Assembly: GCA_011089965.1 (NCBI GenBank)
Contig: JAANAU010000013.1
Span: 1-64,000 of the forward strand
DNA: 64,000 nt
Direction: 5' to 3'
From: Magnetococcales bacterium
GTDB lineage: Bacteria > Pseudomonadota > Magnetococcia > Magnetococcales > Magnetaquicoccaceae
A program made the position numbers and the translations under genes. The notes beneath the pieces are model-generated. The model saw only the letters and a program-made list of their open reading frames with translations. It searched no databases and was not told the DNA's origin. Positions 18,605-31,030 of this stretch are shown here, piece by piece; within the stretch, counting starts at the first letter, position 1; each line of letters starts with the position of its first letter.

Positions 18605-19675
18605 ATGCCCGATCTGTTCAGCCCTTTGCGCCTTGGCCCCTTGACTGTTCCCAACCGCATCTTCATGGCACCATTGACCCGCTGCCGGGCCGATGAGGGC
18701 CATCTGGCCAGCCTGTTGATGGCCGAACATTACCAGCAACGCGCCACAGCCGGACTGCTGATTGCCGAAGCCACCATGGTGATGGAGGGCCATTCGGCAT
18801 TCTGGCACGAACCAGGCATCCACTCTTCGGCCCAGGTTGCAGCCTGGAAACGGGTGACAGAGGCTGTGCATGCGGCCCAAGGTCGCATCTTCTTGCAGCT
18901 CTGGCATGGTGGCCGCGCCTGCCACCCGGAATTGAACGGTGGAGCACAACCGGTGAGCGCCAGCCCGTTGGCCATTGCCAACGACACGGTCCACACGCCA
19001 AAAGGCAAGCTGCCGTATGTCGAACCACGCCCGCTGGCAGACAGCGAAATTCCTGCCATCATCGAAGGATTCAGAGTGGCTGCGGAAAACGCTCTGGCTG
19101 CCGGTTTTGACGGCGTGGAGATTCACGGTGCCAACGGCTATCTGTTGGATCAATTTCTGCGGGACGGCACCAACAAGCGCGTACCCCCTTATGGCGGCTC
19201 GCTGGAGAATCGGGCACGGCTGCTGCTGGAGGTGATCGAGGTCGTGACCCGTGTCTGGGGCGGCGAGCGGACCGGGGTGCGCATCTCCCCGCTCAACGGT
19301 TTCAACGACATGAGGGACAGCGATCCGATTGGTCTGGCGACCTGGCTGGCTGGCCGCCTCAACGCCTATGGATTGGCCTATCTGCATCTGATGCGGGGCG
19401 ATTTCCTGGGACAACAGAGCGGAGATATCATCACGCCGGTACGGGCCAATTTCCAGGGGGTGTTGGTGGGCAACATGGGATATGCACCGGATGAAGCGCA
19501 CCACGCCATCGAAACCGGTCTCCTGGATGCCGTGGCCTTTGGAACGGCCTTCCTGGCCAATCCAGACCTCCCGGCCCGCATTCGGGCCAAGGCACCGTTG
19601 ACCCCCCCGAATCCTGAGACCTTCTATTCACCCGGCCCTGAAGGGTACAATGATTACCCGGTCTGGCGCGATTGA
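18605..19675 (+). CDS. Old yellow enzyme-type alkene reductase (NADH:flavin oxidoreductase)
   Basis: A 356-residue TIM-barrel flavoprotein of the OYE/NemA family. LFSPLRLGPLTVPNRIFMAP opens the barrel and binds FMN. FLQLWHGGRACHP is characteristic, and GFDGVEIHGANGYLLDQFL contains the His/Asn pair that binds the oxygen of the substrate. The phosphate site is in VLVGNMGYAP and AVAFGTAFLANPDL. Members reduce activated C=C bonds of enals, enones, N-ethylmaleimide or nitro esters with NAD(P)H. GGAG lies 9 nt before the ATG. The response-regulator gene follows after 5 nt and may be co-transcribed. Confidence 0.92.
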   Translation: MPDLFSPLRLGPLTVPNRIFMAPLTRCRADEGHLASLLMAEHYQQRATAGLLIAEATMVMEGHSAFWHEPGIHSSAQVAAWKRVTEAVHAAQGRIFLQLWHGGRACHPELNGGAQPVSASPLAIANDTVHTPKGKLPYVEPRPLADSEIPAIIEGFRVAAENALAAGFDGVEIHGANGYLLDQFLRDGTNKRVPPYGGSLENRARLLLEVIEVVTRVWGGERTGVRISPLNGFNDMRDSDPIGLATWLAGRLNAYGLAYLHLMRGDFLGQQSGDIITPVRANFQGVLVGNMGYAPDEAHHAIETGLLDAVAFGTAFLANPDLPARIRAKAPLTPPNPETFYSPGPEGYNDYPVWRD

Positions 19676-19680
19676 AGTTC

Positions 19681-20811
19681 ATGAGTGGAACAGAAATGAC
19701 CACCGAAACGGAAAAATTCAAAATACTGCTGGTGGATGACGAACCGACCAATCTCAAGCTGCTGCGGGAGGTGTTGCGCCACGATTACGCCCTGGTCTTT
19801 GCCCGCAACGCCGAAGAGATGTTGCAGCATGCTGCCGAAGGCCCGGATCTGATCCTTCTGGATGTGATGATGCCGGCCATGGATGGCTACGAGGCGTGCG
19901 CCCGCCTCAAGGCCAACCCGGTCACGCGCGACATTCCCGTCATCTTTGTCACGGCGCGCGTGGAGATCGAAGACGAAGTCCGGGGGTTGGAGGTCGGGGC
20001 TGTCGATTACCTCACCAAACCGATTCAGGGAGCGATTGTGCGGGCGCGCGTGCGCAATCATCTCCAGTTGCGCCAGGCGCGCCGCATTATCGAACGTCAA
20101 AATGAGGAGTTGCGCACCGCCGCCCGATTGCGGGACGATGTGGAACAGATCGTGCGCCATGACCTGAAAGGACCGTTGAATGCCATCATCGGCATGCCCG
20201 GAGCCTTGATCGCCGACTGGAAACTGGATGAAGAGCGTGCCCACTCCCTGCAAATCATCGAAGATGCCGGTTTCCGCATGCTGGAGATGATCAATCGCTC
20301 TTTGGATCTCTACAAAATGGAACGGGGCAGCTATTCGGTCCAGGCCCAACCCGTGGATCTGTTGCTGGTATTGCGCCGCATCCACTCCGAGTTGCACCGC
20401 ATGATTCACACCAAACGGTTGCAACTGGAGATCCGGGTGACCGGAGAGCCGATTGTGGAAGGGGAGACCTTTCTGGTGTTGGGCGAGGAGTTGTTGTGTC
20501 ACTCCATGCTGTCGAATCTGTTGAAAAACGGGGTGGAGGCCTCACCACGCGGCTCCCGGTTGCAGGTGGAGCTGGACTCTTTGCCATCCGGCATGGCCCG
20601 CATCCGTGTTGGCAACCAGGGCAGCGTCCCGGAGACAATCCGCGACACTTTTTTCCACAAATATATCACCTCTGGCAAAAGCCAAGGGGTGGGATTGGGC
20701 ACCTATTCCGCATGGCTCATTGCCACCACCCTGGGTGGAGCCATTCGGTTGAATTGCAGCCAAGAGGGGGAAACCACCATTGAGATCGATCTCCCCCGTC
20801 CACCTCAGTGA
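19681..20811 (+). CDS. Receiver-histidine kinase fusion protein
   Basis: A 376-residue soluble protein. Residues ~15-135 are a CheY-like receiver (ILLVDDEPTN, phospho-acceptor Asp in LILLDVMMPAMDGYE, Lys in YLTKPI). A coiled coil (RRIIERQNEELRTAARLRDD) follows, then a HisKA-like helix with the phospho-acceptor His in IVRHDLKGPLNAIIG. The HATPase_c domain has LLKNGVEASPRG (N box) and a degenerate G1 region (RIRVGNQGSVPE) but a good GVGLGTY G2 motif. The order receiver-first marks it as a phosphorelay kinase controlled by another kinase. The ATG at 19696 is also possible (GGA seven bases ahead). It ends 7 nt inside a convergent gene. Confidence 0.88.
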   Translation: MSGTEMTTETEKFKILLVDDEPTNLKLLREVLRHDYALVFARNAEEMLQHAAEGPDLILLDVMMPAMDGYEACARLKANPVTRDIPVIFVTARVEIEDEVRGLEVGAVDYLTKPIQGAIVRARVRNHLQLRQARRIIERQNEELRTAARLRDDVEQIVRHDLKGPLNAIIGMPGALIADWKLDEERAHSLQIIEDAGFRMLEMINRSLDLYKMERGSYSVQAQPVDLLLVLRRIHSELHRMIHTKRLQLEIRVTGEPIVEGETFLVLGEELLCHSMLSNLLKNGVEASPRGSRLQVELDSLPSGMARIRVGNQGSVPETIRDTFFHKYITSGKSQGVGLGTYSAWLIATTLGGAIRLNCSQEGETTIEIDLPRPPQ

Positions 20812-21149
20812 ACCGCGTGCAGATCCCGCGTCTGGGCCACACCGGCAGAATAACCCCACTTCTCTTTCATCTCATAGGCGGTTTCGATAATCTCATCTTC
20901 CGGGATATTCAAATAGTTGGAGATCACACTGGTCCGCCAATAGGGTTCACCGTGATCATCATAGCCGGTGGGGGCCGGATGGGGTCCGAAGATCTCCTCC
21001 ATGGCCTGACGCATGGCCTGCCGGACTTGCGGCTCTTTGCTCATGGCCAGATACTCCCAGGCATCGTCGAATGCCGGGTGTTGCGGGCCGATCTCCACAA
21101 TGGAGAGGGCCTGATTGATCCAGGATTCCATAGGGGTTGCAGATATCAT
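20805..21149 (-). CDS. Conserved small protein of unknown function
   Basis: A 114-residue acidic soluble protein, with no signal peptide, no Cys and no recognised domain. It contains GYDDHGEPYWRTSVISNYLN followed by IPEDEIIETAYEMKEKWG, which looks like a folded helical domain. The start could be at 21149, 21167 or 21131. Its 3' end overlaps the convergent kinase gene by 7 nt. I do not know a function. Confidence 0.6.
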   Translation of the reverse strand: MISATPMESWINQALSIVEIGPQHPAFDDAWEYLAMSKEPQVRQAMRQAMEEIFGPHPAPTGYDDHGEPYWRTSVISNYLNIPEDEIIETAYEMKEKWGYSAGVAQTRDLHAVH

Positions 21150-21436
21150 CGAATGGGTCACTCCCAAGCGTCAACCGTGAAACCATACGCGCAGGATGCG
21201 CGACTGCCTACACAAAGCACTGTGCATTAATGCAACTTCCATGCCGCACAAAAGATACCCATCGCTCTCCTCAACCAGCCCCCACCGCATCCGGTACGGC
21301 AAAAAATGCCCGACTCCTGGCCGGACTCAAGGCCAAAATTGCCGGATCCATACACTTGACCGCCATCCACTCTTGCCGGAAGATACCCCATCATCCACAA
21401 ACCAATAACCACAGACCTCCAGGAGGCAGACAAAGC

Positions 21437-22303
21437 GTGCTGAAATTTCTGAAACGGTGGTTGGGGGGGGGAAAGAGGGAGAACTGGGATGAAGATGATG
21501 AAAATGAAGATGAAGATGAAGAAGATGAAACCCTTCCAGCCATCGACGCACCGCCTGTGGCACGATTTCATCCCCAGATCCCCGCGCACACCCGCGTCTA
21601 TGTCATCGGAGACATCCATGGCCGTGCCGACCTGTTGCGCCAACTGCACGATCTGATCCGCGCAGACTGGTCAGAGCTGCCCACCGAATGGCGCAAGGTG
21701 GTGGTCTACCTGGGAGATTACATCGACCGGGGGGAAGAGAGCAAACAGGTGATCGATCTGTTGCTGGATGACCCCCTGCCCGACTGCGAACGCATCTTTC
21801 TCAAAGGCAACCACGAAGCCGAGTTGCAGGACTTTCTGGTCAACCCGACCGGAGGCCATCTGTGGACCCAATTCGGAGGCATGGCCACAGCCCTGAGCTA
21901 TCAGGTGCATGTCCCCCCGATGATCTCTGCCGAAGAACGAATGCGCACATTGCGCGATCAACTCCTGGAAGCCATGCCCACATCACACCAGGCATTCTTC
22001 TCTTCCTTGCGTTTCCGGTATGAACTGGGAGACTACTACTTTGTCCATGCCGGAGTGCGTCCCGGCATCCCGTTCAATCGGCAAAGACCGCCGGATCTGT
22101 TATGGATCCGGGAACCGTTCCTGCTGCACGACACGCCCATGGAGAAAATGGTCGTGCATGGCCATACAGTGATGGAGTCCCCGGTCCAGGCCCCCCATCG
22201 CATCGGCATCGATACCGGTGCCTGGTATTCGGGACGATTGACCTGCCTGATCCTGGAAGGGGGTGACCAACGGTTCCTGATGACCGGTCCAACCCCCAGA
22301 TAA
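21437..22303 (+). CDS. PPP-family serine/threonine protein phosphatase
   Basis: A 288-residue calcineurin-like phosphoesterase. The metal and catalytic motifs are all present: VIGDIHGRADLL, YLGDYIDRGEESK, FLKGNHEAEL, VHAG and VVHGHTV. This set matches bacterial PPP phosphatases (PrpA/ApaH-like) that act on phosphoproteins or dinucleoside polyphosphates. Residues ~18-33 are a run of Asp, Glu and Asn, and a basic amphipathic segment (LKFLKRWLGGGKR) precedes them, so the N-terminus may touch the membrane. The GTG at 21437 is preferred because AGGAGG lies 10 nt ahead. It is the first gene of the FimV/actin-like run and is separated from it by 81 nt. Confidence 0.88.
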   Translation: MLKFLKRWLGGGKRENWDEDDENEDEDEEDETLPAIDAPPVARFHPQIPAHTRVYVIGDIHGRADLLRQLHDLIRADWSELPTEWRKVVVYLGDYIDRGEESKQVIDLLLDDPLPDCERIFLKGNHEAELQDFLVNPTGGHLWTQFGGMATALSYQVHVPPMISAEERMRTLRDQLLEAMPTSHQAFFSSLRFRYELGDYYFVHAGVRPGIPFNRQRPPDLLWIREPFLLHDTPMEKMVVHGHTVMESPVQAPHRIGIDTGAWYSGRLTCLILEGGDQRFLMTGPTPR

Positions 22304-22384
22304 TCGAATGGAACTTGTCGTCACGCGCATGCAAGGGTATGCTGTCACTCATCTTTGGCATGGGGCCATGCGTTTTCCACTGTC

Positions 22385-23968
22385 ATGAAGGACAACACCG
22401 TGAACAAACGCCCGATTTGGATTGCCCTGCTCTTGGGGTGGGCATGGGGTCACCCTGGAGATCTGGCTGCCTTTGGCGTCGGAGAGGTGACGATACTCAC
22501 GACCACACCCAAAAAATTTCGGGCCGAAATCCCCGTGCGTCTGAGCGAAGGCGAAACCCTCAAACAGGTCCAGATCGGCTCTGCCACCGATTACCTGGCC
22601 ATGGGAGTCACCCGCACCAGGGCACACGACGGCCTGACCGCCAGGTTGGTGGAAAAAGATGGCGAAACCCGTATCCTGATCAGCTCCAACTCCCCGGAGG
22701 CTGCCAAAGGCTTTGATCTGATTCTGCGGGTCACCTCCTCCAAACACACCAACTTCCCGGTATTCAAAATCCCGGCCCTTGCCAAAACCGAACCTGCCAC
22801 GGAACAAAAAGTCATCAAACAGGTGGCAGAAAATGTCACCCTGCCAGCGGCCATCACCACTGCCTCACCGGATGACAAGGCGGCTGCGGATGCCAATGCC
22901 AACCTGAAGAGCGCCCAGAAACTCGCAACCGCCACCCCGACAACCAAACCATCCGGCGCCATCACCCCCGGAATGCGCCAATACGGACCGGTCCGCGCCG
23001 GCGATACCCTGACATCGATTGCACGGGGATTGCTCGTCAAAGGAATGACGCTGCATCAACTCATGGCAGCGATCTACGAACGCAACCCGGAACATTTCCT
23101 CTCCGGCAACATGAACAATCTGATCTCCGGCGGCACCTTGAAAATCCCGGCCACCGAAGAGATCAAGGCCATTCCGGACCGTCAGGCGCGCGTTTTGTGC
23201 ATGGCCCACTTCAAAGCCTGGGAACAGATGCAGGCCGGACAGAACGTCCCCTTGCCGCCACAAAATGTGCTGCTGGCTGCTGAAGAGGCGGCCAAACACC
23301 CCCAGACAGCAACAACCGAAACGCCTCCAACCAAACCACCGGTCGAGGAGCAGCCTGCTCTGCAATCCCAACTGCAAAGCGCAGCCCCACCCGGTGCCAG
23401 CAACCTGGAAAATGTCCTGGTGCGCTTGCAGAGCCAACTCGGCGAGTTGACCGAAGTGATCAAAAATGGTCAAACCCAACAGGTCAAACTGGAGTCCCGC
23501 GTCTCAGCCCTGGAGCTGGCAAAGGCGGATAACGAGGCATTGGCAAAACGGGTGGCCCATCTGGAACAGGTGGTCAACCAAACGACCACACTACGAACAG
23601 CGGATGGATCCGCCCCGATCCCCATCGAAAGCCGCACCATTGCCTTCAGTTGGTTCGGGGTGTTGTTTGCCGGTCTGGGCGCACTCTTTGCCGGTTGGCT
23701 GGTGTGGACCGGACGACGCTGGAATCGTCAGGCACAACAGGATGGTTTGCGCAAACTGCTGACCGTGACCGCCAAGGAGTATCCGGAGGTCGCCAAAGAG
23801 ATCCTGCGCGAGATGGATCCTGGTCCCACCCCCTTCATCCCATCGATTCTTGCCGGCAAACTGGATGGCGTACCGCCACCGGCGGGCAAAAAACTGGTCC
23901 ATGGCAACGTCTTGCACAGCGTCCAACGGCTGAACGCCCTGGAAGCGGATCGGGGAGAGTCGAAATGA
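22385..23968 (+). CDS. FimV/HubP-like membrane protein
   Basis: A 527-residue protein. The N-terminus is hydrophobic (RPIWIALLLGWAWG) and probably a signal peptide, so the body is periplasmic. Around residues 198-255, YGPVRAGDTLTSIARGLLVK, MTLHQLMAAIYERNPEHFL and NNLISGGTLKIP match the FimV core region, a LysM-like peptidoglycan-binding module. An Ala/Pro/Thr-rich linker and a coiled coil (VRLQSQLGELTEVI ... VAHLEQVV) lead to one membrane helix near residue 420 (FGVLFAGLGALFAGWLVW) and a cytoplasmic tail. FimV/HubP proteins are polar hubs for pili, flagella and chromosome origins. A GTG at 22400 has a better ribosome site (GAAGGA, 8 nt). The stop overlaps the next start by ATGA. Confidence 0.8.
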   Translation: MKDNTVNKRPIWIALLLGWAWGHPGDLAAFGVGEVTILTTTPKKFRAEIPVRLSEGETLKQVQIGSATDYLAMGVTRTRAHDGLTARLVEKDGETRILISSNSPEAAKGFDLILRVTSSKHTNFPVFKIPALAKTEPATEQKVIKQVAENVTLPAAITTASPDDKAAADANANLKSAQKLATATPTTKPSGAITPGMRQYGPVRAGDTLTSIARGLLVKGMTLHQLMAAIYERNPEHFLSGNMNNLISGGTLKIPATEEIKAIPDRQARVLCMAHFKAWEQMQAGQNVPLPPQNVLLAAEEAAKHPQTATTETPPTKPPVEEQPALQSQLQSAAPPGASNLENVLVRLQSQLGELTEVIKNGQTQQVKLESRVSALELAKADNEALAKRVAHLEQVVNQTTTLRTADGSAPIPIESRTIAFSWFGVLFAGLGALFAGWLVWTGRRWNRQAQQDGLRKLLTVTAKEYPEVAKEILREMDPGPTPFIPSILAGKLDGVPPPAGKKLVHGNVLHSVQRLNALEADRGESK

Positions 23969-24408
23969 TCAAATGGTTGCGCGGATTGCTGGTGGGTTTG
24001 GGATTGGGATTTGCCCTGTTTTACGCCAGCGGTCAGGCGAGCGAGGTCTATCATGGGGCATTGGCCTTGATGGTGTTGGCAGGCGTCCTGATCCCTCTGG
24101 AACAGCAGGATCGCCGCCTGGACCGATTGTACACCATGATGAAGGAGATCGACCAACAGATGAAAAGGCTGGATCAACAGCTGACATCCCTTCAGACCCG
24201 CCTCGAAACTCCGGTGGAAGAGGAAGACGAGGAAGACGAGGAACCGGTCCCGCGCTTTGAAATCCGCGAAGACCCCCGTTTCCTTCCCGCCGTACAGCCG
24301 GGCATCAATGAAGGACGCCCCGGCATGGCCCATGAACGCCGTACCGTGGAACGCAGCGTGGAGGATCTGGCCCGCAAGCTGGCATCCATGCAGCGTGGCG
24401 ACGGCTGA
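23965..24408 (+). CDS. Membrane-anchored coiled-coil protein
   Basis: A 147-residue protein with two close hydrophobic segments (LRGLLVGLGLGFALFYA and ALALMVLAGVLIPL) followed by a coiled coil (RLDRLYTMMKEIDQQMKRLD ... LTSLQTRLE). An acidic hinge (EEEDEEDEE) and a basic helical end (RTVERSVEDLARKLASMQR) follow. No named family. Its ATG lies inside the stop of the FimV-like gene (ATGA), so the two are almost certainly co-translated and likely interact. The actin-like gene follows after 79 nt. It may be a membrane tether for that filament (inference). Confidence 0.75.
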   Translation: MIKWLRGLLVGLGLGFALFYASGQASEVYHGALALMVLAGVLIPLEQQDRRLDRLYTMMKEIDQQMKRLDQQLTSLQTRLETPVEEEDEEDEEPVPRFEIREDPRFLPAVQPGINEGRPGMAHERRTVERSVEDLARKLASMQRGDG

Positions 24409-24487
24409 CCGTTGACATACCTGTACATTTGGCCTAATTCTCATGCCTGTTCAATTCCATAAAACCCATCAACAGGATAACCGGCTC

Positions 24488-25576
24488 ATGAGCACCTCTC
24501 CCGAAGATCCGGCACCCGCCGTGGTTCCAGCCGCACCTGCTGTCCCACCTGTGGTTCGCCCCGCTGCCACCCCACTCCACACCTTGAATCTGGGCCTGGA
24601 TGTGGGCACCATGAATCTGGTGTGCGCGCGGGCCAATGCCTCGGGCCGCATCGAAATCGCCAATCTGCGCAATGTCTTTCTGACCGTGGATGATGTCAAC
24701 ATCGAAGGGATGGATCTCTCCAAAATCAGCCATGCCCGCATCGATGACAGCACCTTCATCCTGTCACATGACGCTTATAACTTTGCCAACATCTTCGGAC
24801 ATCGCCTCAGCCGCTCCATGCAAAAGGGGATGATCAGCCCGGAAGATATCAATGCCACGGACATCCTGGCCGTGATGATCCGGGAGCTGTTGTCCATCGA
24901 ACCCGGCTCCAAACCCGGCAAATGCGTCTATTCGGTTCCCGGGGATCCGGTCAACTCCAAATCCAATGTCCTGTACCATCGCAACATCCTGGGACGAATC
25001 ATCGAAGAGATCGGCTTTGAACCCGAAGCCCTCAACGAAGCAACCGCCATCATCTATGCCGAATGTGCCGATTCCGACTTTTCCGGCATCAGCATCTCGT
25101 TTGGTGCGGGCCTGACCAATATCGCCGTGGTCTACAAGTCGATTCCGGTACTGGAGTTCGCCCTGGGGCGCGGTGGCGACTGGATCGATGACAATGTGGC
25201 CATGGCCCTGGGCACCATTCCCAACCGCGTGGTGGCCATCAAGGAGAAGGATTTCCATCTGGATCGCTTTGATCTGGGCCGCAAAAAAGAGCGCAAGGTG
25301 CGCGAGGCCCTGGGATTCTACTACAAGAATCTCATTCAGTACGTGGTCAAAAGCTGTCATCAGGAGTTGAGCCGTCGCGACCTGGATCTGGGCTTCCCGA
25401 ATCGCATTCCCTTGATCATCTCGGGCGGCACATCGTTGGCTGGCGGATTTCTGGACGACATCCGCACCCAGGTGGAAGAGAGTACCTGGCCTCTGGAGCT
25501 GTCCGAGGTGCGGTATGCCAGCGATCCGTTGAGCTGTGTGGCCCAGGGGTGTCTGATCAAATCCCTGAAACAGTAG
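24488..25576 (+). CDS. Divergent actin-like ATPase
   Basis: A 362-residue protein of the actin/Hsp70/MreB ATPase superfamily. After a Pro/Ala-rich N-terminus of about 30 residues come the phosphate-1 loop (NLGLDVGTMNLV, residues 34-45), a central CVYSVPGDPVN strand, a phosphate-2 loop (ISFGAGLTNIAVV, about 203-215) and an adenosine loop (LIISGGTSLAGG, about 309-320). In the phosphate-2 loop the usual Asp is Ser204. It is not a close match to MreB, ParM, FtsA or the magnetosome protein MamK, as far as I can judge by eye. The start at 24488 has AGGA ten bases ahead. Neighbours suggest a membrane-linked cytoskeletal job. Confidence 0.8.
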   Translation: MSTSPEDPAPAVVPAAPAVPPVVRPAATPLHTLNLGLDVGTMNLVCARANASGRIEIANLRNVFLTVDDVNIEGMDLSKISHARIDDSTFILSHDAYNFANIFGHRLSRSMQKGMISPEDINATDILAVMIRELLSIEPGSKPGKCVYSVPGDPVNSKSNVLYHRNILGRIIEEIGFEPEALNEATAIIYAECADSDFSGISISFGAGLTNIAVVYKSIPVLEFALGRGGDWIDDNVAMALGTIPNRVVAIKEKDFHLDRFDLGRKKERKVREALGFYYKNLIQYVVKSCHQELSRRDLDLGFPNRIPLIISGGTSLAGGFLDDIRTQVEESTWPLELSEVRYASDPLSCVAQGCLIKSLKQ

Positions 25577-25586
25577 TGAACCGATC

Positions 25587-26378
25587 CTGATCTCCTTTAT
25601 TCGCACATTCAAACGCCGCCGCATACTCCAGGCCATCTCTCCGGATCACCAGAGATGGTCGGAGATGCTGGCACAGAACGCCCTGTTCACCGGACTCTCC
25701 CCCTCCGAACAGTGGCGGCTGCGTCAACTGGCCGAGATCTTTCTTTATGAGAAGAACATCGACCTGGTGGGCGGATTGGATCTCAAGCACCACCAGCGAT
25801 TGCTGTTGGCTGCCGTGGCCTGCCTGCCGATTCTGGAGCTGGGACCGGATGCCTACGACAATTGGCAAACCCTGATCGTCTATCCCAGGAAATTCATTCC
25901 CGGTCAATCCGAGGTGGACGCCATGGGTGTGGTCCATCCCCCCACACCCAGAATCGGCGAAGCGTGGCCCGATGGTCCGGTCATCCTCTCCTGGAAGGAT
26001 GTCGAACGCGATCTGCTTGGGGATTGGGACTACCCCATGAATGTGGTGATCCATGAGATGTGTCACCAGCTCGATGTGCGCAACGGCGGGTTTGATGGCA
26101 TGCCCAGCCTGCCGCACGATCTGGATCCACGGGTGTGGGTGCGGCAGTTTACGACGACCTTCAAGGCATTACGCCAAAGTGTGGCCCGGGGTCAACCTCT
26201 GCCACTCGATCCATACGCCCTGGAATCACCCGCCGAATTTTTTGCCGTGGTCGGAGAGACTTTTTTTGTGGCTCCAGATCTCCTGATCCAGCTCTGTCCG
26301 GAGATCTATCCCCTCTTGCAGACCTATTTTCGACAGGATCCGTATCAACGAATCAAACAAGGGAGTGGATATCAATGA
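25587..26378 (+). CDS. mtfA: MtfA-type zinc peptidase, probably non-ATG start
   Basis: The metallopeptidase core is clear: NVVIHEMCHQLD (HExxH) and a downstream YALESPAEFFAVVGETFF with the third zinc ligand Glu. IVYPRKFIPGQ and PVILSWKDVERD are further MtfA motifs. E. coli MtfA cleaves peptides and binds the repressor Mlc. The first ATG (25665) would cut off a conserved N-terminal helix. The frame stays open back to 25569, and the upstream residues (ISFIRTFKRRRILQAISPDH) look like the family N-terminus. CTG at 25587 or ATT at 25599 are the only candidates, so a rare start codon, or a sequence error, must be considered. It overlaps cysM by ATGA. Confidence 0.82.
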   Translation: MISFIRTFKRRRILQAISPDHQRWSEMLAQNALFTGLSPSEQWRLRQLAEIFLYEKNIDLVGGLDLKHHQRLLLAAVACLPILELGPDAYDNWQTLIVYPRKFIPGQSEVDAMGVVHPPTPRIGEAWPDGPVILSWKDVERDLLGDWDYPMNVVIHEMCHQLDVRNGGFDGMPSLPHDLDPRVWVRQFTTTFKALRQSVARGQPLPLDPYALESPAEFFAVVGETFFVAPDLLIQLCPEIYPLLQTYFRQDPYQRIKQGSGYQ

Positions 26379-27259
26379 AAACATTAGAGACATGTGTGGG
26401 CAATACACCACTGGTGGACTTGACCCGATTGACCGCATCCTTGCGCGGTACACGCATTCTGGTCAAACTGGAAGGCAACAACCCTGCCGGATCGGTCAAA
26501 GACCGGGCGGCTTTGAGTCTGTTTGAAGGAGCCGAAAGACGTGGCATCCTGCAACCCGGCAGACGCATCATCGAACCAACCAGCGGCAATACCGGCATTG
26601 CCTTGGCCATGATCGCCGCCCGCAAAGGGTATTCGATAACATTGGTTATGCCTGAAAACATGACCCTGGAACGACGGGCAATCATGCAGGCATATGGTGC
26701 CCAGTTGGAATTGACCCCGGAAGCCGGCAGCATGGAAGGGGCGATTGATCGGGCACGGGCCATGGTGGAGGCTGGCGAAGGGATCTCGTTTGATCAATTC
26801 TCCAATCCCGACAACTGGTTGGCCCACTATCGGACCACAGGACCGGAAATCTGGATGCAGACCAATGGTCAGGTGACCCATTTTGTCAGCGCCATGGGAA
26901 CCACCGGCACCATCATGGGGGTATCCCGCGCCCTGAAAGAGCGCCATGCCGGAATTCAGATCATCGGCGTGCAGCCGGATGCCGAATCGCGCATTCCGGG
27001 TATTCGCCGCTGGCCAAAAGAGTATCTGCCCAAGATCTTTGAGCCGCAACGGGTGGATCGGATCCTGGATGTCCACGAAGAGGAAGCCAAGGCAGTGACC
27101 CATCGTCTGGCACGAGAAGAAGGGATCTTTGCCGGTCACTCGGCAGGCGGGGCAGTGGCAGCAGCCATGCGGCTGGCCGAAGAGTTGACCGAACCGGGCA
27201 TGATCGTCACGGTTCTGCCGGATCGTGGAGATCGTTATCTCTCCAGTTCGTTGTTCTGA
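26375..27259 (+). CDS. cysM: Cysteine synthase B
   Basis: A 294-residue PLP enzyme. NPAGSVKDRAAL carries the PLP Lys, PTSGNTGIALAMIAA is the substrate loop, and SAMGTTGTIMGVSRAL binds the cofactor phosphate. The length and the C-terminal FAGHSAGGAVAAAMRL fit CysM rather than CysK. The enzyme makes cysteine from O-acetylserine and sulfide, or S-sulfocysteine from thiosulfate. Its ATG overlaps the mtfA stop, so it is translated with that operon. Other sulfur genes (metX, cysB, a TusE-like gene) lie 26-31 kb away. Confidence 0.95.
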   Translation: MKTLETCVGNTPLVDLTRLTASLRGTRILVKLEGNNPAGSVKDRAALSLFEGAERRGILQPGRRIIEPTSGNTGIALAMIAARKGYSITLVMPENMTLERRAIMQAYGAQLELTPEAGSMEGAIDRARAMVEAGEGISFDQFSNPDNWLAHYRTTGPEIWMQTNGQVTHFVSAMGTTGTIMGVSRALKERHAGIQIIGVQPDAESRIPGIRRWPKEYLPKIFEPQRVDRILDVHEEEAKAVTHRLAREEGIFAGHSAGGAVAAAMRLAEELTEPGMIVTVLPDRGDRYLSSSLF

Positions 27260-27289
27260 AACCGAATCGAGACATGGAGAAGTCCGGAG

Positions 27290-29287
27290 ATGGGGATTGC
27301 CACGGATCTGATCATCATTGTTCTGGTTGCGTTGTTGGGGGGTGGGATTGCCCATCTGTTCCGGCAACCTCTGATCCTCGGCTATATCCTGGCCGGCATC
27401 GCGGTTGGCCCGCATACCGGCGGCGTGACCATCACCCAGATTCACGATATCGAACTGTTGGCCGAGATCGGGGTGGCGCTGTTGCTGTTTGCCCTGGGAT
27501 TGGAGTTTTCATTTCAGGAGTTGCGCCCGGTCCGCCGGGTGGCCCTGATCGGCACTCCCCTGCAACTGGCTGCCAGCCTGTTGTTGGGGTATGGTCTGGG
27601 GCGTCTGGCCGGACTCTCCTGGAATGTGAGCCTGTGGTTCGGAGCCATGGTGGCCTTGTCCAGCACCATGGTGATCCTGAAAACCTTGATGAATCAGGGT
27701 TGGATGGGCACCCTCTCCAGCCGCGTGATGATCGCCATGCTGATCGTGCAGGATCTGGCGGTCGTACCGATGATGATCATCCTGCCCCAACTGGACAATC
27801 CGGACATGGGTTTGCAGATCCTGGGTTGGGCAGCCCTCAAGGCCGTACTGTTTCTGGTGGTGATGGTGGTCGTGGGCACACGCCTGTTGCCATGGCTGAT
27901 GGGTCGGATTGCCCGGTGGAACTCCCGCGAAATGTTTATGCTCTCCTTGCTGGCCGTGGGGCTGGGCGTGGGATATGCCACCTGGCTGGTCGGTCTCTCT
28001 TTTGCTCTGGGTGCCTTTGTCGCCGGTATGGTACTGGCCGGCTCCCATTATGGCCATCAGGCATTGAGCGATATCACGCCGGTACGGGATCTGTTTGCCA
28101 TGCTCTTTTTCGTGTCAGTGGGCATGATGCTGGATCCAGCTTTTCTGCTGGATCACCTGGGGCTGGTGGCCTGGCTGGTCGTGCTGGTGAGTCTGGGCAA
28201 AGGGGCAATCTTTTTTGGCGTGGCCCGTCTGTTCGGCTATGGCAATGTCGTGCCCTGGGCCATGGGGTTGGGGCTGTTCCAGATCGGTGAGTTCGCCTTT
28301 GTGATTGCCCGAATCGGCCATGCGGACGGGGCACTGGATCGGAATGCCTATGCCCTCTTTTTGACGGTGACCATCGTGACCATGCTGTTGACCCCGCTCA
28401 TCTCCAGCATGACCGGACCGCTCTATGCCTGGATGCGGCAACGTCATCCGAAAAGTCCACGCACCACCATCACTTTGCCCACCGAAAAGCTGCACGATCA
28501 TGTGATCGTGATTGGGGCGGGCCGGGTGGGACGCCAGGTGGTGGAGCTGTTGGGACGGGCAGGGGTCACCCGCATTGCCGTGGAAGCCGACTCACACCGG
28601 CTGGAACAGGCCCAACAGGCTGGGCTGCCGGTGGTCTATGGCGATGCCACTCAGGAGACCATCCTGCACGCAGTCGGCCTGAAACAGTGCCGCCTGCTGA
28701 TCGTTACCCTCCCGGATCTGATCTCCTCCCGCACCGTGGTGGCCAGAGTCAAAGCACTGGCCCCCTCACTGCGCATCATCTCGCGGGTTTCCGGAGAAGA
28801 ACAGATCGATCAACTGCGTGAACTGGGGGCACCGGATGTGGTTTGGCCCCATCTGGAAGGGGGGCTGGAGATCTCACGGCTCGCCTTGACCCGCCTGGGT
28901 GTACCACCCGGGGCCATTCACCGTCTGGTCTGGGAAGCACGAGACCGCTGCTATGCCGACGTGGGCGACCCGGAAACCACCCCCTTGTTCCCGCCCCCAC
29001 ACCAGGCGGAAGCCTCCCTGCTGGATCTGGCATGGATTCCGATCCAGCAGGGTTCTGACCTGGACAGCCAAACCATTGGCACCATCGATGTGCGCAAAAA
29101 CAGCGGTGTGGCCATTCTGAGCATCTGGCGTCACGGCGCGTTCATCCACAATCCCGGTGCCGACTTCTGTCTGGCTGCTGGCGATCTGGTGGCCATTGTC
29201 GGCCCGGACCAGGGACGCAACCAGTTCCTGGTTTGGTCAACCCAGCCAGCCATTGCCACGGCACCCGGCTTCGACCACTCTTCTTGA
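27290..29287 (+). CDS. Kef-type CPA2 cation:proton antiporter with TrkA domains
   Basis: A 665-residue protein. About 390 residues form a CPA2 Na+/H+ exchanger domain with a dozen membrane segments ([58 protein letters not shown]). Then comes a TrkA-N/RCK domain ([20 protein letters not shown], then [15 protein letters not shown]) and a TrkA-C domain at the end. This matches KefB/KefC and YbaL-like K+ efflux systems gated by nucleotide or glutathione adducts. No KefF/KefG partner is next to it. It starts 30 nt after cysM. The ion is likely K+, by family only. Confidence 0.92.
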
Positions 29288-29350
29288 CTTTTAACAATAG
29301 TCAATCACAGTCGCTACCCAGTGCCATGACCGCCGACGTGACCACACCTG

Positions 29351-31030
29351 TTACAACTTCTGTTCGATCTTGCTCCAGGCATCCCGCAATCCGACCGTGC
29401 GATTGAACACCGGCGCACCCGGACAGGAGTCCCGATCCCGATGAAAATAACCCAAACGCTCAAACTGATATGGCAAAGCAACCGACTCCTCAGCCAGGAT
29501 CGGCTCAAAACGACAGCCGCTCACAATCTCCATGGAGTCGGGATTGACATGATCCACGATCTCACCTTTCAAGGCATCAGGCTCCGGCATGGTGAACAAC
29601 GGAGCATACAAACGCACCTCTCCCACAACCGAACGGGTGGCTGAAACCCAATGAATCACACCCGCCACCTTGCGACCCACAGGATTGGCATTCAAGGTGG
29701 CTGGATCGTGTTCGCAACGCAACTCCACGATCTCTCCTGTCACCGGATCCTGGATCACCTCGCGACAGCGTATCACATAGGCATTGCGCAAACGCACCTC
29801 GCCTCCGGTCACCAACCGCTTGTACTGTTTGGGCGCGGTTTCGCGAAAATCCTCCTGCTCGATAAACAGCTCACGGGTGAAACAGATCGTCCGTTTGCCC
29901 ATGGCCTCGTTCTGCGGATGGATGGGAGCGGTCAAAAACTCTTCATGCCCTTCCGGCCAGCTCTCGATCACCACCTTCAAGGGCCGCAGCACGGCCATGG
30001 TCCGTGGGGAACGGGCCTCCAGATCACTGCGCAGACAGTTTTCCAATAACGCCAACTCCACCCGGTTGGGGGATTTGGAGATCCCGATGCACCGACAAAA
30101 CTCCCGGATCGACTCCGGAGTATACCCCCGTCGCCGCAATCCGGAGATGGTTGGCATGCGCGGATCATCCCAGCCGGCCACCATGCCCGATTGGACCAGG
30201 GCATTGAGCTTGCGCTTGCTCATCACCGTGTATTCCAGTGAGAGCCGGGAAAACTCGATCTGACGCGGACGACACGGCAGATCCAACTGATCGAGGATCC
30301 AATCATACAGTGGACGATGGTCCTCAAACTCCAGAGTGCAGAGCGAATGGGTCACACACTCCAAGGCATCCGAAATCCCATGCGCATAATCATAGGTGGG
30401 ATAGATGACCCACGCATGACCGGTACGATGGTGCTCGACCCGTCGGATCCGATACAAGGCAGGGTCGCGCATGTTCATGTTGGGAGAGGCCATGTCGATT
30501 CTGGCCCGCAACACCCGCGCCCCGTCCGGGAACTCCCCGGCCCGCATCCGCCGGAACAGATCCAGATTCTCTTCCACCCCACGGTCGCGATACGGACTGT
30601 CACGTCCAGGTTCGGTCAATGTGCCGCGATACTCCCGCATGGCACTCGGGGAGAGATCACAGACATACGCCTTGCCTTTGAGAATCAACTCCTCGGCATA
30701 ATGATACAACGGCTCAAAATAATCCGACGCAAAATATTTGCGCTCCTCCCAGTCAAAGCCCAGCCAACGGACATCCTCCTGGATTGCATCCACATATTCG
30801 ACATCCTCTTTTTCCGGATTGGTATCGTCGAAACGCAGATTGCACTGCCCGCCCGCATGTTCCGCTGCCACGCCGAAATTCAAACAGATGGATTTGGCAT
30901 GACCAATATGCAGATAACCATTTGGTTCCGGAGGGAAACGGGTCTGAAGCCGCCCGCTGTTCACTCCGTTTTTCAGATCCTGGTCAATGATATCGCGTAT
31001 GAAGTCCGCGCTTTCGAGGGAATCAGTCAT
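29351..31030 (-). CDS. glnS: Glutaminyl-tRNA synthetase
   Basis: A 559-residue class I aminoacyl-tRNA synthetase. The HIGH signature is in [20 protein letters not shown] and the KMSKS loop is VMSKRKL. Further GlnRS segments are [20 protein letters not shown] and [20 protein letters not shown]. The C-terminal beta-barrel anticodon-binding part is complete. A direct GlnRS implies that Gln-tRNA is made without GatCAB for this tRNA. It follows a coiled-coil gene after 65 nt on the same strand. Confidence 0.96.

Follow-up and report, generated by a model that had tools for sequence, protein, structure and literature searches.

A volactin-family actin of Magnetococcales, related to volactins of large tailed phages and encoded beside membrane proteins with a shared tail module

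Volactin has so far been described as an archaeal actin of shape and tissue. The papers found describe it for haloarchaea only, and the sole characterized member is VolA of Haloferax volcanii (HVO_2015), whose filaments are dynamic in vivo, growing and vanishing rapidly (PMC10869688); we found no experiment on a bacterial or phage volactin. The authors of that work suspect that filament tethering uses binding factors yet to be identified (PMC10869688). A second comparison is with Mad28, an actin-like protein that deep-branching magnetotactic bacteria encode in the magnetosome island. Two changes set it apart from MamK, Asp to Ser in the phosphate-2 loop (xxxSxGxGxx) and xExx in place of xEPx (PMC10653835). 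MreB and MamK share the actin fold and both retain the phosphate-2 Asp. Among phages, large nucleus-forming jumbo phages encode the cytoskeletal filament protein PhuZ, an analogue only, having a tubulin rather than an actin fold. The accessible part of a 2026 jumbo-phage review (PMC13282480) contains no mention of a phage actin of the volactin family, and the accessible jumbo- and huge-phage literature mentions tubulins and no volactin-type actins.

The locus described here encodes a volactin-family actin behind two membrane proteins. It lies in a 64,000-nucleotide stretch of DNA (the window) from a Magnetococcales MAG, whose close relatives found by search bear the same order name. The features, all on the forward strand, are as follows:

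22385..23968, + strand: FimV-like protein, 527 aa, with a FimV_N domain, a weak LysM and one transmembrane segment (about residues 419–440)
23834-23851, + strand: tail motif FIPSIL of the FimV-like protein
23909-23947, + strand: terminal helix of the FimV-like protein, VLHSVQRLNALEA
23965..24408, + strand: TMcc, 147 aa, directly upstream of volactin, with a hydrophobic N-terminal segment, a predicted coiled coil, an acidic linker and a C-terminal module
24280-24294, + strand: tail motif FLPAV of TMcc
24355-24393, + strand: terminal helix of TMcc, SVEDLARKLASMQ
24488..25576, + strand: volactin-family actin (PF25216), 362 aa, from an uninterrupted ORF, a Pfam match and an AlphaFold2 model
within 24488..25576, + strand: Pro/Ala-rich, disordered volactin N terminus, about residues 1–30
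24593..24616, + strand: phosphate-1 loop GLDVGTMN, with Asp38 invariant in the family alignment
25031..25048, + strand: connecting segment LNEATA, with invariant Glu184 where MreB has its catalytic Glu (family and profile alignments)
25094..25120, + strand: phosphate-2 loop ISFGAGLTN, with family-invariant Ser204 instead of Asp (family and MreB profile alignments)
25415..25435, + strand: adenosine motif IISGGTS (family alignment)

The protein matches the Pfam volactin profile PF25216 at 240.5 bits (E 4e-71, profile positions 2–319 of 321), far above the gathering cut-off of 35 bits, whereas MreB_Mbl scores 12.4 bits, under its cut-off of 27. The AlphaFold2 model, built with family members, is a confident actin fold (pLDDT 87.6, pTM 0.84), for which Foldseek finds MreB (E 1e-15), MamK and BeeR as the best PDB structures; a sequence search of the PDB gave no useful match. 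The top viral structure in BFVD is Gp506 of phage G, at 14% identity. Strong constraint is evident among the volactin relatives (dN/dS 0.06–0.11), and the ORF is a genuine volactin and a real, constrained gene. It shares with VolA the Pfam family, the phosphate-1, phosphate-2 and adenosine signatures and the phosphate-2 Ser, and is 35–39% identical to haloarchaeal volactins. It differs in its bacterial host, its kinship with a phage clade and the FimV-like and TMcc genes upstream. As membership of the family is plain, no new kind of protein is involved. Elsewhere in the same genome there are separate genes for MreB and for three MamK-type actins, so volactin is an additional actin. Assignment to MreB is excluded by the low MreB_Mbl score and by Ser204, to MamK by the separate MamK-type genes and the non-magnetosome nature of the neighbours examined, and to ParM or FtsA by the Pfam and structure comparisons.

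A preliminary description, made from the DNA letters, had proposed an actin-like ATPase with intact phosphate-1 and adenosine loops, unlike typical MreB, ParM, FtsA or MamK, and had named archaeal volactin among the proteins to compare in a phylogeny; all of this is upheld by the data above. Its central observation, that Ser204 replaces the usual phosphate-2 Asp, is also correct. In a profile–profile alignment with MreB, Ser204 aligns with the Asp in VVDIGGGTTEV (E 1.7e-6), and neither a substitute Asp at another position of that alignment nor placement in an ordinary MreB clade was found in the alignment and profiles. The data do not support reading the substitution as peculiar to one protein and as impairing hydrolysis or turnover. 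Ser occupies this position in 126 of 126 distinct aligned volactins (haloarchaea, Omnitrophota, Magnetococcales and viruses), and the aligned Haloferax loci carry the same loop. Asn183, Asn211, Asp231, Asp234, Lys252, Glu253 and Gly313-314 are invariant alongside Asp38 and Glu184. Such invariance rules out a damaged or one-off loop. Because Ser is family-wide and the Haloferax filaments are dynamic, the change does not mean that the filaments are dead or frozen. The phosphate-2 Ser is therefore a signature of the volactin family and no sign of a broken filament; it may still alter the chemistry of hydrolysis. One viral homologue (L187, on a 167 kb contig) carries an intein-like insert, about 400 aa long, exactly between SFGSGMT and the N of this loop; inteins usually sit at conserved active-site positions.

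In other actins, the phosphate-2 Asp helps to place the Mg-water. The earlier idea can thus be extended to the whole family, with Ser giving a slow or non-hydrolysing actin that builds static scaffolds, and Mad28, reported with the same change, polymerizes stably with ATP-γ-S (PMC10653835). We regard this as unlikely: Glu184 is retained, the Ser is invariant across the 126 rows, and rapid filament growth and loss in Haloferax sits badly with a static scaffold.

The stop codon of the FimV-like gene overlaps the TMcc start (ATGA), and both proteins end in a related module with the consensus [FY][IVMF]P-x-[IVL], a linker and a terminal amphipathic helix. The two tails score 43.2 against each other (shuffles ≤22.5). 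The TMcc tail also matches the nearer set of phage partners, proteins encoded just upstream of phage volactins, at 33.5 (300 column shuffles, ≤17.9); its match to a larger partner set is weak, 16.6 versus 15.5 for the reversed control. The two partner sets score 41.6 against each other (shuffles ≤23.9). The module was spotted post hoc. Of the 64 ORFs of the window, only those of TMcc and the FimV-like protein, beside volactin, have the motif near the C terminus. Across the volactin-positive families examined, the FimV-like tail keeps its form. In a fold of the readthrough concatemer, tail confidence is only moderate (about 65–74 pLDDT). We considered TAG recoding that would fuse the phage partner to volactin and set it aside; the in-frame TAG is more plausibly an ordinary stop codon, since the L129 volactin itself ends in TAG. 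The tail of the haloarchaeal upstream protein has only weak similarity to the module, and we claim no haloarchaeal partner tail. Haloarchaeal loci (for example L019, L026 and L029) do have an upstream protein of ~300 aa, ending in repeated VDDAV..L..L.GG helices, as a possible volactin partner.

Gene order around volactin is conserved within its genus, the neighbours being the FimV-like gene, an M90 peptidase and cysM-, kefB- and glnS-like genes. This conserved, housekeeping-type setting rules out a recent prophage in the window. Across 61 relatives, volactin has a patchy distribution, present in 15 genomes and absent from 46. TMcc occurs in 14 of the 15 positive and none of the 46 negative genomes (Fisher 7e-13, ignoring kinship, most positives being of one genus). 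It is not always adjacent: in family f4 volactin does not adjoin TMcc, and in genome G020 TMcc lies on a different contig, next to a FimV-like gene. Of the volactin-negative genomes, G011 and G013 have FimV-like tails without the FIP motif and G017 keeps it; volactin may be missed in G017, as the contig stops ~130 bp past the FimV-like gene.

Volactins are common in large tailed phages. Scanning IMG/VR returned 66 volactin loci, 17 of them on contigs above 200 kb, and a phage record collection added two huge-phage genomes (485 and 595 kb). A large terminase (phrog_2) shares the record with volactin in 15 of the 18 IMG/VR records that were tested, and both huge phages encode one as well. A T4-type Gp23 capsid is encoded by one huge phage; of the five nearest viral contigs tested for it, four have a match, in two cases below the curated cut-off. 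Around the nearest phage volactins lie genes for a phage-type RNA polymerase beta, a helicase, a UvsX-like recombinase, a ribonucleotide reductase and a baseplate hub. PHROGs v4 contains no family matching volactin. A second phage group (L182, L192, L172 and others) has a different conserved upstream protein, HHWLTYG...YADHLLFERLYN, which by eye resembles ferritin/Dps proteins. Downstream of volactin the group has a conserved gene of ~380 aa, for which the one case tested (L137) had no PHROG match.

In three IQ-TREE trees (67, 66 and 52 rows), Magnetococcales volactins form one clade (100/100) nested among the phage volactins. The preliminary description had called for a phylogeny with MreB and MamK; including these as a very distant outgroup in one tree left the nesting unchanged. 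Closest to this clade stands phage L190 together with L012, a MAG contig whose volactin adjoins a phage-like RNA polymerase gene; phages L130 and L132 come next. An AU test rejects the phages as a single clade excluding Magnetococcales (p=0.005); the immediate sister node has moderate support (96/79, or 95/82 with the outgroup). The phage-to-bacterium direction depends on the root, whose placement is uncertain, and on a handful of phage rows with long branches. Volactins occur in several cellular lineages (haloarchaea, Omnitrophota and Magnetococcales), and given the uncertain root, phages could instead have obtained volactin from Magnetococcales-like hosts, in reverse or separate transfers. 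This seems improbable to us, as the phage rows L190, L130 and L132 successively subtend the Magnetococcales clade with and without the outgroup.

The phage relatives, together with membrane-protein tails like those of viral neighbours, suggest a cytoskeleton borrowed from a virus. The reading that we think probable is of a phage-derived, membrane-tethered volactin module, domesticated by some Magnetococcales. An ancestor of these bacteria would have gained volactin from a large tailed phage and retained it as a cellular gene. Its product most likely forms dynamic, ATP-dependent filaments, as predicted from its family. The C-terminal modules of TMcc and the FimV-like protein would dock onto volactin and so tether the filaments to the inner membrane, probably at the pole or another spot marked by the FimV-like landmark. 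Phages would pair volactin with soluble partners, zinc-motif or coiled-coil proteins whose tails are related. The most economical model that we can propose is a filament held by the two docking proteins, which would serve as a positioning cytoskeleton anchored at the membrane or the pole. More tentatively, and with rather less assurance than the domestication itself, phages may run a volactin cytoskeleton with a dedicated docking partner, a counterpart of the PhuZ spindle, and some Magnetococcales may have taken over the pair and coupled it to a polar landmark, the FimV-like protein.

In the journals covered, which are not all, we found no earlier description of volactin in Magnetococcales and large phages, of the nesting or of the shared tail module. 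Presence in phages and fixation in a bacterial order change the history of volactin and suggest that cytoskeletons are carried from one domain to another by phages. For volactin tethering, the shared tail module offers a concrete candidate.

The family-wide Ser raises the question of whether the magnetosome actin Mad28 is itself a volactin. Compared by description, the Mad28 motifs fit ISFGAGLTN and LNEATA; both of its reported departures from MamK are present in the Magnetococcales protein (PMC10653835), which makes a Mad28-like second magnetosome actin, placing chains in Magnetococcales cocci, a fair rival. In RS-1, chains are misplaced when mad28 is deleted (PMC12748827). Several observations nevertheless leave this doubtful, and less probable than the alternatives above. 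No magnetosome genes were recognized among the neighbours examined (18605-31030 of the window), only the 15 of 61 relatives carry volactin although MamK-type actins are separate genes, and Pseudomonadota are reported to lack mad genes (PMC12713370). In Omnitrophota, considered as a possible bridge to Mad28, the MamK-like actins lie in settings not recognizable as magnetosome clusters. An anti-phage decoy is very improbable. In that reading the domesticated actin would join the filaments of incoming volactin phages and so poison their cytoskeleton. The Magnetococcales protein is akin to phage volactins, and hybrid filaments of related PhuZ tubulins are reported to be non-functional (PMC13282480), but the gene evolves slowly (dN/dS 0.06–0.11), keeps a fixed setting with the FimV-like gene and has no recognized defence genes among its neighbours.

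Other volactin loci have arrangements of their own. Omnitrophota contigs L023, L031, L041, L045, L047 and L076 carry tandem volactin pairs, the second with an N-terminal extension of ~150 aa. Upstream of the pairs stand a coiled-coil gene and a ParA-like ATPase gene, more coiled-coil genes follow behind them, and some genomes have two such sets. A small gene before one Omnitrophota pair (L230:12106-12396) encodes HIPGIQSERIDISKDLDNALELILLMQ, which resembles the Magnetococcales and phage tail module. In Haloferax gibbonsii (L015:7607-8917), a tubulin-like gene, CetZ-type by eye, lies ~650 bp downstream of volactin, making actin and tubulin homologues neighbours in this archaeon.
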